A program made the translations under genes and the position numbers. Positions 29,526 to 36,360 of a stretch of 36,778 nt of DNA are shown piece after piece. The stretch comes from Planctomycetota bacterium (GTDB taxonomy: Bacteria; Planctomycetota; Planctomycetia; Planctomycetales; Planctomycetaceae). Location: positions 1-36,778 of the forward strand of contig JAJXXL010000016.1 in the NCBI GenBank assembly GCA_021781115.1. Direction: 5' to 3'. Each line of letters starts with the position of its first letter. Position 1 is the first letter of the stretch. The notes under the pieces are model-generated. The model did not search any database. It worked only from the letters and a program-made list of their open reading frames with translations, and had not been told where the DNA came from.

Positions 29526-30209
29526 ATGCCCACGACGGACGACCGTCATGACATTCAGGTCGGCGTGGCCGAACACGATCAGGCGACCGCCGTGATGCGG
29601 TGCTCGTCGCCGCTCAACCTTCCCAACGCCATCACGCTCAGCCGGCTGCTGCTGGCCGGGGTGCTGTTCACCCTGATCGATCGCGGCGCGCACTGGGGCG
29701 CATCGACCGTCGTGTTTATCGTTGCCGCAGCGACCGATGCCCTCGATGGTTACATTGCCCGCCGCTACGGGCTGGTCACAGTGTTCGGACGAATTCTCGA
29801 CCCGTTCGTTGACAAGGTCATCGTGTGCGGCGCCTTCGTGTTTCTGCTGGCCTGGCCGCAATCCGGCGTCAACGCCTGGATGGTCATCATCGTCATCGGA
29901 CGTGAAATGTTCGTCACCAGCCTGCGAAGCCTGCTCGAACAAGAAGGCCAGGATTTTTCGGCCACACTTTCAGGCAAGCTCAAAATGGTTCTCCAATGCG
30001 TGGCGGTTGCCACGGCGCTGCTGTCGCTCGCCCCCGAAATCGCCGATGCACCATGGGCCCCGCAGTTTGCCGTGTTCCGCAACGTCATGCTGTGGAGTGC
30101 CGTTGCCGCGACGGTGGCCAGCGGCGTCGTGTATGTTCTGCGCGCCATCAAACTGTTTGGCCGCGGTCGCGCCGCACATCCTGACGCCAACGCCCACATG
30201 CGGCCCTGA
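29526..30209 (+). CDS. pgsA: CDP-diacylglycerol-glycerol-3-P phosphatidyltransferase
   Basis: This 227-residue membrane enzyme makes phosphatidylglycerol phosphate from CDP-diacylglycerol and glycerol 3-phosphate. The CDP-alcohol phosphotransferase signature D..DG..AR........G...D...D is intact (Asp71, Asp74, Gly75, Ala78, Arg79, Gly88, Asp92, Asp96). NLPNAITLSRLLLAG at the start of the membrane region, and GREMFVTSLRS, are typical of PgsA. The family is shared with other CDP-alcohol transferases, so the exact acceptor is inferred. About 28 polar residues precede the core. The ATG at 29526 follows GAGGCG. It lies 127 bases after rimO on the same strand. Confidence 0.88.
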   Translation: MPTTDDRHDIQVGVAEHDQATAVMRCSSPLNLPNAITLSRLLLAGVLFTLIDRGAHWGASTVVFIVAAATDALDGYIARRYGLVTVFGRILDPFVDKVIVCGAFVFLLAWPQSGVNAWMVIIVIGREMFVTSLRSLLEQEGQDFSATLSGKLKMVLQCVAVATALLSLAPEIADAPWAPQFAVFRNVMLWSAVAATVASGVVYVLRAIKLFGRGRAAHPDANAHMRP

Positions 30210-30246
30210 CCCTGTTTCGTGTTCATTGCGGCTTGCACCGATTAAG

Positions 30247-31062
30247 ATGCCCGCGACGCCAAACCTCACGAAGGTTCGCCCACAGCCGCAAGCGCCCAAC
30301 GCCGCCGGGCGACACAAGCTGCTGCTGGTGCTGATCGTCGTGCTGGCAGCCAGCGCCCCGCACAACCGGCTGCAGGCCGACGACGCCCCGGCCGCGCCGC
30401 GCCGTCATGCGCAGTTGTTCGTCGTGCTGATCGGCGGCATGAATTCAGACCCCACTCCCGGTCAGATATCCGGTACGGCCCTGAAGAACGAGGGCAACAG
30501 CGGAATGTATCAATTGTGCCGCGAGCTGCAACACGCCCCCTGGTGCACGGCCGAGTACTTCAATTGGAACGGCACCCGCGCCGGAGAAATTGCGAGGCCG
30601 AACTCGCCCGGCGCGGCCGGCATTGCCGCCGCCATCGCGGCGCACATTCAGGCGCAACCGAACGATCGCACGGCCATCGTGGGCAACAGTTGGGGCGGGC
30701 ATACCGCCGTCGAAACCGCCCGCGAGTTGCTGCACCGCGACGCACCGCTGGCGCTCGACAGGCTGGTCCTCATTGATGCTTCATCGACCGGCCGGGTCGG
30801 CGGCCCGATCAACACGCTGCCGGTCAATGTCAATCAAACGGTCAATTATTTCACGCATAACGTGTTTGTCTGGGGCCGCAACCTGGGCGGGCGCACGATC
30901 GAGCACGTCGACCTGGGCGACCCCCAGGCCGGGTTTCGGCAATCGGGTGGCCCGGCCTACGACGCGGCGTTTGACTTCGCCGCCCATGTTTCGGCCGAAT
31001 GGGACACGCGAATTCATGCCGACGTCAAACGCCGGCTGGCCGCGATCCTGCACCCCGAATGA
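30247..31062 (+). CDS. Exported alpha/beta-hydrolase-like protein
   Basis: This 271-residue protein has a basic N-terminus and hydrophobic segment (HKLLLVLIVVLAASAP, about residues 23-38), consistent with a signal peptide or anchor. The hydrolase fold is indicated by an early strand LFVVLIGGMNS and a nucleophile elbow GNSWGG (GxSxG) in AIVGNSWGGHTAVETA, followed by LVLIDASS. The catalytic acid and histidine are not certain. The substrate could be a lipid or ester; this is open. The ATG at 30247 was chosen because it lies just after pgsA (37-base gap) and directly before the signal segment; no strong ribosome binding site is seen. Confidence 0.72.
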   Translation: MPATPNLTKVRPQPQAPNAAGRHKLLLVLIVVLAASAPHNRLQADDAPAAPRRHAQLFVVLIGGMNSDPTPGQISGTALKNEGNSGMYQLCRELQHAPWCTAEYFNWNGTRAGEIARPNSPGAAGIAAAIAAHIQAQPNDRTAIVGNSWGGHTAVETARELLHRDAPLALDRLVLIDASSTGRVGGPINTLPVNVNQTVNYFTHNVFVWGRNLGGRTIEHVDLGDPQAGFRQSGGPAYDAAFDFAAHVSAEWDTRIHADVKRRLAAILHPE

Positions 31063-31140: not shown

Positions 31141-32778
31141 ATGACGCGATCACCAGACAACCCGACCAGCAACGCCCGTGCAGGTGGCGCGTTGCGCGGC
31201 GTGCTGGAGTTTTGCGTGTGCCTGACGATTGCAGTCACACTGGTGCGCACGTTTGCTGCCGAGGGTTACGTGATTGAAACCGGCTCGATGGCCCCCTGCC
31301 TGCTGGGCAATCATCGCTGGGCCGAATGCACGAGTTGCGGCGAAAAATATTGCGTCGATGAATCGCGCGCGGCTGAGCCGGCCGTCTGCCCGAATTGCGG
31401 GCTGCGCGGGATCGATGTCGGGCAGAATCTTCGCAACGATGGCGATCAACTGCTGGTCTTTCGCGCCGGCTACGAGTACCGGGTTCCACGTCGGTGGGAA
31501 GTGGTCGTCTTTCGCAACCCCGGCCAGCCCACGCAGGCCTACGTCAAGCGCATCGCGGGGCTACCCGGCGATGCGATCCAGATTATCGACGGCGATGTCT
31601 ACGTCGCCGGCCAGATCCAGACGAAGTCGCTGGCCACGCAACGCGGCATGCGCATACCCGTGTACGATCATGACCATCGCCCGCCCGACGACGACCCCGA
31701 ATGGCGCCCGCGCTGGATCCCCGACGGAACCGGGCCCCAATCGCCCGCGCATTGGCGCACCGCTGGCGGCGCGTTCGTGTACGACGACCTCGAGGCGCAG
31801 CCCCCTGCCGAGGCCGCACGGCCGCCTCTGTCGTGGCTCCGCTACCGGCACTGGGTCCGCCGCGGCGGAACCCACGCCACTTCCGTGTGCCTGCCCCTCC
31901 CACCACCTCAGGTCGAAGAGTTCGCCTCGCCCGGCGAACCGCTGACCTGGCGGAGCAATTCGAATGAACTGGTCTGCCACGGCGCGATGCCGGCCGAGTT
32001 GTACAGCCGCCTGCGGTCGGCCGGCACGACCGACGGCTGGCAAAAAACGGTCGATCAGCTTTTTGAGGGCTCGCACATTGCCCCGATCACCGATGGCTAC
32101 GGCTACAACCGCGCCCGCGATGGCGCGGGGGCCAATGAAGTTCGCGACCTGATGATCTGTTTCAACCTGTCGATCATTGCGGGCCAGGGAGAATTCGCCT
32201 TGGCCCTCTCCGACGGAGCCGCCACGTTTGAATGCCTGTTCGATGTTTCCCGCCGGCAGATACGTCTCAAGGATGTCGCTTCCGAAAAGGTCGTGCGTAC
32301 CGCGCGGCTGCCGGCAAATCTGTTTCCCGGCCCGGCCCTCGTCGAATTCTCGCTCATGGATCACCAAGTTGCTCTCGCCGTCGCAGGCCAGGAACTGTTT
32401 GAGCCCTGGAATTCCGCCGCCCCCCAGGGACGGGGGCCCACCCCCTGGGCCCCCGTGCGAATTGGCGCCCGCGGGCTGAACCTGCGGGTCGACGGGGTGC
32501 GCCTGTTTCGCGACGTTTACTATACCGGCGGGCCGGGCCGCCGCGGTTGCTCGTCGCCCGTCGTATTGCAGCCGGGCGAGTTTTTTGCCCTGGGCGACAA
32601 CAGCCCCGTCTCGCGCGACAGCCGCAGTTGGCCTGAGGGAAAGGTGCTCACCCGTGAACTGCTGCTGGGAAAACCGTTTCTGGTGCACCTGCCCTCGCGC
32701 CGCCACCGGCTACGCTTCGGGCGCTGGCAGGGCGACATCCGCATTCCTGATCTTTCACGCATTCGCTATATTCACTGA
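31141..32778 (+). CDS. Signal peptidase I paralogue with inserts (1)
   Basis: This 545-residue protein has a single N-terminal membrane segment (about residues 20-40) and the S26A signal peptidase catalytic elements: Ser49 in IETGSMAP, Lys136 in YVKRIAGLPGD, and the C-box FFALGDNSPVSRDS (Gly485-Asp486-Asn487). It is about twice the usual bacterial length. Directly after the catalytic Ser box lies a CxxC...CxxC element (Cys63, 66, 83, 86). Between the Lys box and C-box lies an insert of about 340 residues, whose part at about 318-462 reads as alternating beta strands like a LamG or concanavalin-type sandwich, ending IGARGLNLRVDGVRLFRDVYY. It should cleave signal peptides at the outer face of the membrane. 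The next gene is a paralogue. Confidence 0.85.
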   Translation: MTRSPDNPTSNARAGGALRGVLEFCVCLTIAVTLVRTFAAEGYVIETGSMAPCLLGNHRWAECTSCGEKYCVDESRAAEPAVCPNCGLRGIDVGQNLRNDGDQLLVFRAGYEYRVPRRWEVVVFRNPGQPTQAYVKRIAGLPGDAIQIIDGDVYVAGQIQTKSLATQRGMRIPVYDHDHRPPDDDPEWRPRWIPDGTGPQSPAHWRTAGGAFVYDDLEAQPPAEAARPPLSWLRYRHWVRRGGTHATSVCLPLPPPQVEEFASPGEPLTWRSNSNELVCHGAMPAELYSRLRSAGTTDGWQKTVDQLFEGSHIAPITDGYGYNRARDGAGANEVRDLMICFNLSIIAGQGEFALALSDGAATFECLFDVSRRQIRLKDVASEKVVRTARLPANLFPGPALVEFSLMDHQVALAVAGQELFEPWNSAAPQGRGPTPWAPVRIGARGLNLRVDGVRLFRDVYYTGGPGRRGCSSPVVLQPGEFFALGDNSPVSRDSRSWPEGKVLTRELLLGKPFLVHLPSRRHRLRFGRWQGDIRIPDLSRIRYIH

Positions 32779-32920
32779 CTGACGAACGCCACGTGGCCCG
32801 CGACGGCCGATGTGCCGCCGACCTGCCGATGAAGCCAACCAGCGCACGCTTTTCGAACAACTTTTTTTTCTGACGGATTGTCGTCATTCCGCTTTCCGAA
32901 ACTCTGCCGCGTTTTCAACC

Positions 32921-34816
32921 ATGCCCAAACCCGTGACTCCTTCGGCTGCCAGCCGGGCTGCCTCGACGGCGGCAACAACTGTCTCTCCCGCAACTTCTGT
33001 CGCAGAGCCGGGCAACAATCCCTCGCCGCCATCGACTAGCCGCCGCCCCGACAATTTTCGCGATATTGTCGAATCGGTCGTGGTGGCGTTCGTGCTGGCA
33101 TTTTTGTTTCGCACGTTTGAAGCCGAGGCGTTCGTCATTCCCACCGGGTCGATGGCCCCCACGTTGCACGGCGCACATCGCGACGTCGATTGCAACCAGT
33201 GCGGCGTGCATTTCGAGGTCAGCGCCAGCGAGGAAATTCGCGGCGGGGTTTTGAACCCGGCCGAACGCACGATCTTTGCCGTCTGCCCCAACTGCCGGTT
33301 TCCCAACGACACGCTCCGCAAGGAAATTTTTCGGGGCGATCGCATACTCGTCAACAAGTTTCCCTATGACCTCGGCTCGCCCGACCGCTGGGACGTGGTC
33401 GTGTTCAAATACCCTGAAGAACCGGGCACGAATTACATCAAGCGGCTGGTCGGCTTGCCGGGCGAAGAACTGAAAATCGAGTGGGGCAACGTATACGTGC
33501 GCAAGCTGGCCAGCCAGGATCCATTCAGAATTCCTCGCAAGCCGCCCGATAAGCAACGCGTGCTCCAACAACTTGTCTACGACGACGACCACCCCCCGCA
33601 CAACCTGATCGCCACCGGCTGGCCCGAACGCTGGGCTGCCGAGCCGGGCGCCCGCTGGACTGGCGACCCGGCCAAACGCAGCTACCTCGCCGAGCCTGAA
33701 CCGGTCGACGACGACAGCGAACATTGGCTGCGCTACCGCCACCTGGTGCCCACCGTGGCCGACTGGGCCTTCGCCGCCAACGCGGCGCCCGCTGGCGAAA
33801 AAGCCCCCCAACCCGAGCTGATTACCGATTTCTACGGCTACAACAGCAACATTACGGCCCGCGAACAATGGCGCGGCCGCGACGAACTTCCCGAACTGCG
33901 TGCCAGCTCGCTGGGCCTGCAATGGGTCGGCGACCTGACCATTTCGACGACGGTCGAGGTATTCGAGGCCCGTGGCGAACTGATTTGTGAACTCGTCAAG
34001 GGCGATCGCCGCTACCGTTGCCGCATCGACCTGAAAACCGGGACTGCCGGGTTGTCGTATATCGACAACCAGTTGAACAAGACCGATCAGGAAATTCCGC
34101 TGGGCGATGCCGCGACGACCATGACCCGTTCGGGCTCGTACCGTCTGTCGTTTGCCAACGTCGACGATCGGCTCTGCCTGTGGGTCAACGACAGCCTGGC
34201 AAAAACCGTCGAATTCGACCCCGGTTCACGATACGCCCCACCCGCCCCGCCGATCTCCCCCACCGACCGCGACCTGGCCCCGGTGGGTTTTGCCGTGCGC
34301 GGCGCGCGCGTGCGGCTGTCGCATCTACTGCTCGAACGGGACGTGTTTTACCGCTACGCCGTCCCCGGAGAACGCTCAGACGACGACGCTTTCGGCAAAG
34401 GCCCCGAAGAATTCCACCGCCTGTTGCAACATCCCGAAAGCTGGTTCGAACTCAATCGCGAACGCAAAAACGCCAAGACGTATGCTCTAAACGATGGGGC
34501 CAATGACACTGAAGATGAGTTCATGGTGCTCGGCGACAACAGCCCCCGCAGCAGCGATAGCCGGTTGTGGAACCATTCGCACGCCGTCGCACGCCGCCTC
34601 CTGATTGGCAAGGCGTTTTACATCTATTGGCCCCACGCCGTGCCGTTTCTGAACCACGGCAACGGTTGGGCCGTCATGTCATACCCCGGTGTGGCTGGCG
34701 AACCGCTGAACGACGACGACCGGCGCGGCGAACATCGCGACCGCTTTCCGCCCCCCGTACCCAGCCTGAGCATTCCCTTTTACCCGCAGGTGCAACGCAT
34801 GCATCGCATTCGCTGA
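32921..34816 (+). CDS. Signal peptidase I paralogue with inserts (2)
   Basis: This 631-residue protein has a disordered Ser/Ala/Pro N-terminus (residues 1-42), one membrane segment (about 50-70) and the catalytic elements Ser77 in IPTGSMAP, Lys174 in YIKRLVGLPGEE, and C-box MVLGDNSPRSSDSR (Asp539-Asn540). The same CxxC...CxxC ribbon (Cys91, 94, 122, 125) follows the Ser box. An insert contains a beta-rich domain at about 303-479 ending VGFAVRGARVRLSHLLLERD. It shares the architecture of the upstream gene, so the pair arose by duplication, but similarity is low outside motifs. Here the Ser box, FRGDRILVNKFPYD and Lys box follow the E. coli LepB pattern closely, so this may be the housekeeping copy. 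ATG 32921 was chosen because the upstream frame is not protein-like. Confidence 0.87.
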   Translation: MPKPVTPSAASRAASTAATTVSPATSVAEPGNNPSPPSTSRRPDNFRDIVESVVVAFVLAFLFRTFEAEAFVIPTGSMAPTLHGAHRDVDCNQCGVHFEVSASEEIRGGVLNPAERTIFAVCPNCRFPNDTLRKEIFRGDRILVNKFPYDLGSPDRWDVVVFKYPEEPGTNYIKRLVGLPGEELKIEWGNVYVRKLASQDPFRIPRKPPDKQRVLQQLVYDDDHPPHNLIATGWPERWAAEPGARWTGDPAKRSYLAEPEPVDDDSEHWLRYRHLVPTVADWAFAANAAPAGEKAPQPELITDFYGYNSNITAREQWRGRDELPELRASSLGLQWVGDLTISTTVEVFEARGELICELVKGDRRYRCRIDLKTGTAGLSYIDNQLNKTDQEIPLGDAATTMTRSGSYRLSFANVDDRLCLWVNDSLAKTVEFDPGSRYAPPAPPISPTDRDLAPVGFAVRGARVRLSHLLLERDVFYRYAVPGERSDDDAFGKGPEEFHRLLQHPESWFELNRERKNAKTYALNDGANDTEDEFMVLGDNSPRSSDSRLWNHSHAVARRLLIGKAFYIYWPHAVPFLNHGNGWAVMSYPGVAGEPLNDDDRRGEHRDRFPPPVPSLSIPFYPQVQRMHRIR

Positions 34817-34915: not shown

Positions 34916-35674
34916 ATGCCCCGGTTGCAATGCCTTGGTTTGAAAAAAGTCTATGGCGGGCGAACCGTCGTCAACGACGTCAACTTCGATGTCGAGCGCG
35001 GTGAAATCGTGGGCCTGCTCGGGCCCAATGGGGCCGGAAAAACCACCAGCTTTCGCATGACCTGCGGCATGGTCACCCCCACCGCCGGAACGGTATTGCT
35101 CGACGGCGTCGACGTCACCGACTGGCCCATGTACCGCCGCGCCCAGCAGGGCATGGGCTACCTCGCCCAGGAATCGAGCGTGTTCGTCAAACTCACCGTC
35201 GAACAGAACATCCTGGCCATTCTCGAAATGCTGCACGTCGGCCGCCGCGAACGTCGCCACGTCACCGATGATCTCCTCGACCAGTTCGGCCTGACGAAAC
35301 TCCGCCGTTCGGTGGCATCGACGCTGTCGGGCGGCGAACGGAGGCGGCTGGAGATCGCCCGTTGCCTGGCCAGTGAACCGACGCTGATCCTGCTCGACGA
35401 ACCGTTTACTGGAATTGACCCAGTGACGATTCACAGCATTCAAGACATCATTCGCAGCCTGCGTGACAGCGGCATTGCCATCTTGCTGACCGACCACCGC
35501 GAAATGGAAACGCTGACGATTACCGATCGCAGCTATATCATTTGCGCCGGGCGCGTTCTCGTCACCGGCGATTCGGAAACCGTGCTGAACAATGAAGATG
35601 CCCAACAGGCGTATTTCGGCAAGCGGCGGTACCACGACGCCATGCGCGAAACCGGCGCTCCTGACGCCGCCTGA
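34916..35674 (+). CDS. lptB: LptB-like ABC transporter ATPase
   Basis: This 252-residue ATPase has Walker A GPNGAGKTT, a Q-loop (YLAQESSVFVKLTVEQN), signature LSGGERRRLEIARCLA, Walker B LILLDEPFTGIDP and switch His in LTDHR. Sequence details (GYLAQESSVFxxLTVxxN, LSGGERRRxEIARxLA, DEPFxGIDPxxxxDI-type, ITDRSYIICAG) are those of LptB, which energises lipopolysaccharide extraction with LptF and LptG. The ATG at 34916 follows CGGAGG by seven bases. It lies 99 bases after the second signal peptidase gene. Its likely membrane partners are LptF/G proteins such as the one encoded at 8035; this pairing is inferred. Confidence 0.9.
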   Translation: MPRLQCLGLKKVYGGRTVVNDVNFDVERGEIVGLLGPNGAGKTTSFRMTCGMVTPTAGTVLLDGVDVTDWPMYRRAQQGMGYLAQESSVFVKLTVEQNILAILEMLHVGRRERRHVTDDLLDQFGLTKLRRSVASTLSGGERRRLEIARCLASEPTLILLDEPFTGIDPVTIHSIQDIIRSLRDSGIAILLTDHREMETLTITDRSYIICAGRVLVTGDSETVLNNEDAQQAYFGKRRYHDAMRETGAPDAA

Positions 35675-35988
35675 TTCACGTTCGCCCAATTGTCTGAGGC
35701 GACTTAAAATCATGACAAATGTGTAAGTTCTGATCGAATTGCGAACAGTCGCCGAGCGACGAACCGCCGTGCAGAGCCTTTCTGCGCTGTCGTTTGACAT
35801 AATTCGATTGGCGATTCGCCGCCGATGAATTAACGCATAACCATTAATGCCAATAGGTTACTGCATTGCATTGCATCAGGTCCGCAGGCCGCATCCCTTG
35901 GGGTTTTGCAGAGTTTGCCGAGTTTACGGGTTGTTCGGCGGCCTTAAAAATGGTTCAAGCAATTCGTCTCTTTCACTGAGGATGCCAC
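35675..35988. other. A/T-richer spacer after lptB, no gene seen
   Basis: About 310 bases lack a supportable gene. A weak TCGCC/GGCGA hairpin near 35690-35710 is followed by a short A/T stretch and could end the lptB transcript. TTGACA at 35794-35799 is a perfect -35 but has no -10 at normal spacing. A short tandem repeat of TGCAT occurs at 35862-35876. Confidence 0.35.
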
Positions 35989-36017
35989 TTGACCCTCAAA
36001 TCCGCGACCCATAGAAT
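35989..36017 (+). promoter_or_regulatory. Candidate sigma70-type promoter of csrA
   Basis: TTGACC (35989-35994) and TAGAAT (36012-36017) are separated by exactly 17 bases, each one base from consensus apart from the final -35 base and one -10 position. Transcription would start near 36024, leaving a leader of about 130 bases before the csrA ATG. Confidence 0.6.
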
Positions 36018-36023
36018 GGTGTA

Positions 36024-36153
36024 ATTGTGCATAGTGGAGATACTGTGCATGGTGAGGTTTTGGGCGAGCGTGTGGACGCAAGCCTTGGCCATCGGGCCGT
36101 CGGAATGCCTTGGTTTGAGGCAAAAGCCTGACCCAACGGGAGAGTCATCGGCA
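36024..36153 (+). promoter_or_regulatory. csrA leader with repeated GGA motifs
   Basis: The predicted leader contains GGA at 36036, 36074, 36102 and 36139, the last being part of the Shine-Dalgarno sequence (GGGAGAG). A small hairpin (TGCCT/AGGCA) lies at 36106-36122. CsrA binds GGA motifs in leaders and often represses its own translation in other bacteria, so feedback control is a reasonable inference. Confidence 0.4.
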
Positions 36154-36360
36154 ATGTTGGTTCTTTCGCGCAAGAAGAACGAAAGCATCGTGATTGACGA
36201 TTCGATCGTCATCACTGTGGTGGAAATTCGGGGGGACAAAGTCCGTCTGGGCATTCAGGCCCCGAAGGAAGTTCCCGTTCACCGCAGCGAGGTCCATGCC
36301 GCCATTCACTCTGAACAAGCCAAGGAAGGGCCGCCCACGGTCTTTCCTGCCGAGGCCTAG
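36154..36360 (+). CDS. csrA: Carbon storage regulator CsrA
   Basis: This 68-residue RNA-binding protein starts MLVLSRKKNESIVIDDSIVI in the exact CsrA pattern, followed by VRLGIQAPKEVPVHRSEV, which contains the conserved GIxAPxxVxVHRxE core. As a dimer it binds GGA-containing leaders and alters translation or stability of many mRNAs. The length is normal; residues after about 52 form a short variable tail. The ATG at 36154 follows GGGAGAG by ten bases. It is monocistronic, with its own promoter at 35989-36017 and a strong intrinsic terminator at 36441-36475. In other bacteria it can be antagonised by FliW or small RNAs; neither was seen here. Confidence 0.95.
   Translation: MLVLSRKKNESIVIDDSIVITVVEIRGDKVRLGIQAPKEVPVHRSEVHAAIHSEQAKEGPPTVFPAEA

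Follow-up and report, generated by a model that had tools for sequence, protein, structure and literature searches.

The two adjacent genes analyzed here encode proteins that carry the catalytic elements of a bacterial signal peptidase, with a long stretch of beta strands between the catalytic Lys and the C-box. What is this stretch, and what would it do inside an enzyme that cleaves signal peptides? Signal peptidase I belongs to the essential core enzymes and is a target for antibiotics. The window, by which we mean the whole 36,778-nucleotide stretch of Planctomycetota DNA that was analyzed (contig JAJXXL010000016.1), had received an initial annotation from its sequence, which described two diverged paralogues with a lectin-like module and raised a wall- or glycan-binding function. 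All coordinates of the peptidases, their parts and lptB given below are on the forward strand.

Identity of the peptidases and predicted fold of their inserts

Signal peptidase A (545 aa) is encoded at 31141..32778 and signal peptidase B (631 aa) at 32921..34816. Both open reading frames agree with the lengths first given for them, except that an upstream ATG at 32810 would extend B to 668 aa. The type I signal peptidase (S26A/LepB) model TIGR02227 matched A with 80.5 bits and B with 104.2 bits, both above the cut-off of 47, while the Pfam S26 match was split into three separate stretches in each protein. The two are related to each other with a BLASTP E value of 1e-40. AlphaFold2 models, built from input alignments of 36 sequences for A and 76 for B, had mean pLDDT values of 85.1 and 85.7, respectively. 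In A, the parts are a single N-terminal transmembrane helix, the S26 catalytic core, a zinc-ribbon-like insert and a concanavalin A (ConA)-like sandwich. The N-terminal segments at residues 13-41 of A (31177..31263) and 45-67 of B (33053..33121) are helical in the models and presumably membrane-spanning.

The catalytic residues are Ser49 in box B, GSMAP (31285..31287), and Lys136 in box D (31546..31548) in A, and Ser77 (33149..33151) and Lys174 (33440..33442) in B. The C-box is LGDNSPVSRDSRSW in A (residues 484-497, with GDN at 485-487; 32590..32631) and LGDNSPRSSDSR in B (residues 537-548, with GDN at 538-540; 34529..34564). Boxes B-E are intact in both proteins. Ser, Lys, and the GDN, D, S and R of the A C-box are invariant in 36 relatives, and Ser, Lys, and the GDNS, S, D and R of the B C-box in 76 relatives, confirming that these elements have been kept. 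No S26 match other than A and B was found in this 95%-complete genome, and in most sampled genomes of the class the matches listed were long S26 enzymes of the A/B kind. A and B are probably the housekeeping type I signal peptidases (LepB). One family of B paralogues (f3) was considered as a set of pseudo-proteases because a regular expression detected neither GSMAP nor KRxxG in them; this was rejected, since the alignment reads GSMAE and KRAMG at these positions and the dyad is therefore intact.

The models of both proteins contain an all-beta insert between Lys and the C-box. Its sandwich strands (residues 337-457 in A and 339-473 in B) have pLDDT values mostly of 96-98, and residues 331-480 of B mostly of 87-98. 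The beta-rich region that had been proposed was thus modeled confidently in both paralogues, and the sequences do contain the YGYN motif and the RDVxY strand that had been described. In Foldseek searches against the PDB, the catalytic core matched E. coli LepB and the inserts matched CBM66, levanase modules, galectins and glucanases. CBM66 aligned to B over about 240 columns with a TM score of 0.72 by target length. E. coli LepB aligned to the A and B models only with long gaps (TM 0.36-0.44), while the insert matched ConA-like folds; a domain II of the E. coli type is not obligatory in the family. TM scores by target length were about 0.44-0.72, a moderate agreement with any single fold that would be expected of a divergent member. 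In both paralogues, the insert is predicted to be a ConA-like beta-sandwich, in line with the LamG-like sandwich first suggested from motifs. It models as structured rather than disordered, with the same fold in A and B by AlphaFold2, Foldseek and hhalign. The possibility that it is merely an enlarged LepB domain II was borne out in part: the domain II slot is occupied, but by what models as a lectin-like fold.

The location of the insert was correct in the initial annotation and its start was not, because the block begins about 65-110 residues earlier. The CBM66 alignment over about 240 columns of B indicates that the domain includes the strands at about residues 238-272, ahead of the YGYN loop that had been taken as its start; these strands and those at residues 192-235 of A, with a conserved W...WLRYRH segment, are all part of one homologous block. 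The sandwich accordingly extends over residues about 192-462 of A (31714..32526), as delimited by AlphaFold2, Foldseek, the alignment and hhalign to B, and about 238-477 of B (33632..34351), where the AlphaFold2 model resembles ConA, galectin and CBM66 folds. The narrower insert as first delimited gave an hhalign probability of 99.8% between A and B, and the extended one (RKP...VYD through RDxYY) a profile-profile probability of 99.9%, showing that the two inserts are homologous over the whole block. Within the block of A, residues about 242-311 (31864-32073) form a further insert of about 70 residues, which the alignment places only in A of the window's family and not in A of other families.

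The insert is less conserved than the catalytic core. Its members score below Pfam cut-offs, so that it falls in no Pfam family, and a sequence search of PDB chains gave no convincing match to either insert; profile matches to ankyrin and ESA1 chains were taken as chance. The predicted fold is that of CBM66 (PDB 4b1m) and galectin (3vv1), whereas identity to them is only about 8-17%, the galectin signature is absent and the insert is nested inside a protease.

In A and B alike, a second insert, which the initial annotation had missed, follows the catalytic Ser and precedes the next strand: CTSC...CPNC at residues 63-86 of A (31327..31398) and CNQC...CPNC at residues 91-125 of B (33191..33295). 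The four Cys are invariant in the 36 relatives of A and the 76 relatives of B. This CxxC...CPNC element, which has the two CxxC knuckles of a zinc ribbon, was found in 52 of 52 sequences of the class and in 12 of 41 sequences beyond it, whereas all 31 standard enzymes lack it. The Pfam zinc-ribbon match was below its cut-off, and we infer zinc binding. Because it lies beside the nucleophile, the second insert is likelier than any other part to influence the access of substrates. In two loci outside the class (L093 and L095), Cys-rich inserts (CLECH..., CPYCGR) lie just before the catalytic Lys, a site unlike that of the window's loop.

Compared with E. coli LepB (PDB 1b12; TIGR02227; PF10502), A and B share the Ser/Lys dyad, boxes B-E, the N-terminal anchor and, in relatives, the lepA neighborhood. 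They differ in having one transmembrane helix rather than two, an extra zinc-ribbon-like loop after Ser, and a cap from Lys to the C-box that models as a ConA-like sandwich rather than as LepB domain II.

Distribution across Planctomycetota

To describe the distribution of the domain, a profile (A10) built from 51 phylum-wide sequences was used in searches that covered 246 Planctomycetota genomes. Matches were present in 240 of the 246 genomes, and in 132 of the 134 genomes with a completeness of 90% or more and a contamination of 5% or less; part of these matches were read as S26 proteins, and some of the weakest may be other ConA-like proteins. A B-only insert profile matched 163 of the 246 genomes, and relatives of B were found in all 99 sampled genomes of the class. 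In a scan of genome contigs, an alignment query gave matches and a single-sequence query gave none. In 298/298 complete open frames read, the domain separated the N half of an S26 enzyme from its C half; the other 27 matches were truncated by the end of a locus or by a break in the frame. In 31 S26 enzymes without the domain, the corresponding gap was only 24-111 residues. A plasmid search returned the standard S26 core only. The architecture occurs almost throughout the phylum and is not peculiar to this genome. These results indicate that a core secretion enzyme has been rebuilt phylum-wide, and the architecture can serve as a marker for the group. A search of an open-access library yielded no description of this architecture, which is weak evidence that none has been published.

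A deeper search of eight genomes with profile A10 gave weak matches away from the expected S26 positions (E 2e-6 or worse). Several of the matching proteins that were examined carry 3keto-disac_hyd (PF06439) or Laminin_G_3 (PF13385) domains (E about 1e-6 to 1e-3 for PF06439/LamG proteins). This is a weak but independent line of sequence support for assigning the insert to ConA-like folds, and a hint of its source. These planctomycete domains are among the nearest non-S26 sequence relatives of the insert, although they are free of a peptidase in the proteins examined and the insert itself remains below Pfam cut-offs.

Open frames of 750-1270 aa in GC-rich loci, which would represent long N-terminal fusions, were rejected for most cases. 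Their N-termini resemble lepA or other upstream genes read out of frame, and in three of the four tested Pfam detected only S26. One lectin-bearing signal peptidase (L213:769-3039) has an N-terminal PadR-like match in the same frame, below the cut-off (E 9e-5); in this frame a regulator may truly be fused to a signal peptidase.

The architecture might extend to related phyla, because the chlamydial signal peptidase I CT020 is both divergent and, at about 630 aa, similar in size to A and B. Its sequence is reported to be strongly diverged from those of non-chlamydial enzymes (PMC1403754).

Proposed role of the sandwich

ConA-like folds are frequently used in protein contacts. The size of domain II differs among signal peptidases and the domain contains no conserved motifs (PMC4049620). 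Because the insert sits in the domain II slot, we infer that it is a replacement cap. The best overall explanation, to which we assign a probability of roughly 0.6, is that A and B are LepB enzymes with a ConA-like sandwich cap that acts as a docking or substrate-positioning module. A and B would be Ser/Lys proteases that are anchored in the inner membrane and cleave signal peptides at its outer face. In Planctomycetota, the variable, non-catalytic domain II between Lys and the C-box would have been replaced by a sandwich of about 240 residues of the LamG, 3-keto-disaccharide hydrolase or galectin type, itself non-catalytic. In the window's class and in part of the remaining phylum, a zinc-ribbon-like loop would have been added beside the catalytic Ser. 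Judging from the chain order, the sandwich would most likely sit above the substrate cleft or next to it as a rigid cap for docking; by binding either a partner protein or the mature domain of a preprotein as it emerges, it would position substrates in the planctomycete periplasm. An ancient A/B duplication would then have produced two such caps. Taken separately, the architecture is close to certain, whereas the odds for the docking role itself appear about even.

Conservation within the insert bears on this role. Only D415, R473, D474 and Y477, and mostly D338, are near-invariant phylum-wide, and they lie at strand ends and hairpins. Their near-invariance suggests that D415, R473, D474 and Y477 are a constrained contact or a structural anchor. 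The galectin signature HxNPR was found in none of 298 sequences. The scarcity of invariant residues, their location at strand ends and the lack of a galectin signature favor a structural anchor with a docking surface over a conserved sugar site, and the wall- or glycan-binding function that had been raised did not gain support from these data, although the insert may contain a diverged sugar site.

A true lectin module would bind glycans, such as peptidoglycan, LPS or glycosylated preproteins, and would tether the peptidase or select glycosylated substrates. The top fold matches are indeed carbohydrate-binding (CBM66, galectins, levanase modules), the profile reaches weakly to the carbohydrate-related PF06439/LamG proteins, and lptB adjoins the peptidase genes. 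We nevertheless consider this explanation unlikely, given that the 298 sequences lack the galectin signature, that few residues are conserved phylum-wide and that a ConA-like fold often serves protein contacts. Still more doubtful is a version in which the sandwich is a lectin-fold receptor that reads a glycan or partner mark on secreted proteins, two such receptors sort cargo in Planctomycetia, and the zinc-ribbon loop gates the active site.

Lower conservation of the insert than of the core fits a passive element equally, namely a structural spacer or stabilizer without a specific partner, in which an enlarged domain II was fixed by descent. The occupied domain II slot, which elsewhere varies in size and is motif-free (PMC4049620), is consistent with this. 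The domain, D and RDxxY residues included, is retained in 240 of 246 genomes, counting the weakest matches, even though some S26 enzymes of the phylum have a gap of only 24-111 residues at this place. This argues against a mere spacer, which we regard as improbable to the same degree as the lectin module. If the non-catalytic cap has been exchanged for a lectin fold nearly phylum-wide, and a metal-binding-like loop has been added near the active site, the enzyme with which planctomycetes process their secreted proteins would be of a different build. This would also allow a specific test of how export is handled by their unusual cell envelope.

Paralogue history and gene neighborhood

In a tree of catalytic cores with FastTree support values, standard and lectin-bearing enzymes separated (29 of 30 together, support 0.91). 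In this tree, A grouped together with two outside sequences (support 0.95), and 25 of 26 B sequences grouped at 0.86; in another core tree, A and B fell into separate clades with support of 0.80 and 0.77. The separate clades indicate that the duplication is older than the class radiation. The two copies have diverged deeply, as had been proposed, and may plausibly serve different client sets.

A and B are often in tandem in the class and are unlinked in some genomes, such as G041 and G081. That both paralogues predate the class radiation, often remain in tandem and both keep the catalytic dyad would also fit an obligate pair, a heterodimer formed via the sandwiches in place of two enzymes with separate clients. 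The unlinked genomes and the single match in many other genomes of the phylum speak against such a pair, which we consider very improbable.

Directly downstream of B is the gene for LptB, the LPS export ATPase (34916..35674; TIGR04406, 312.8 bits against a cut-off of 240); lptB and then csrA follow the peptidases (34916-36360). lptB was also downstream in two relatives checked (L106 and L113). This adjacency links the locus to envelope biogenesis.

lepA-lepB is a classical operon. In many relatives, a gene with the LepA C-terminal motif is directly upstream of the lectin-bearing lepB, and lepA was confirmed in two loci by TIGR01393. The gene upstream of the window's A differs from lepA. This open reading frame (29722-31062), at the usual place of lepA, had no Pfam match; its second half contains a GNSWGGH motif, and from its sequence the product looks like an alpha/beta hydrolase.
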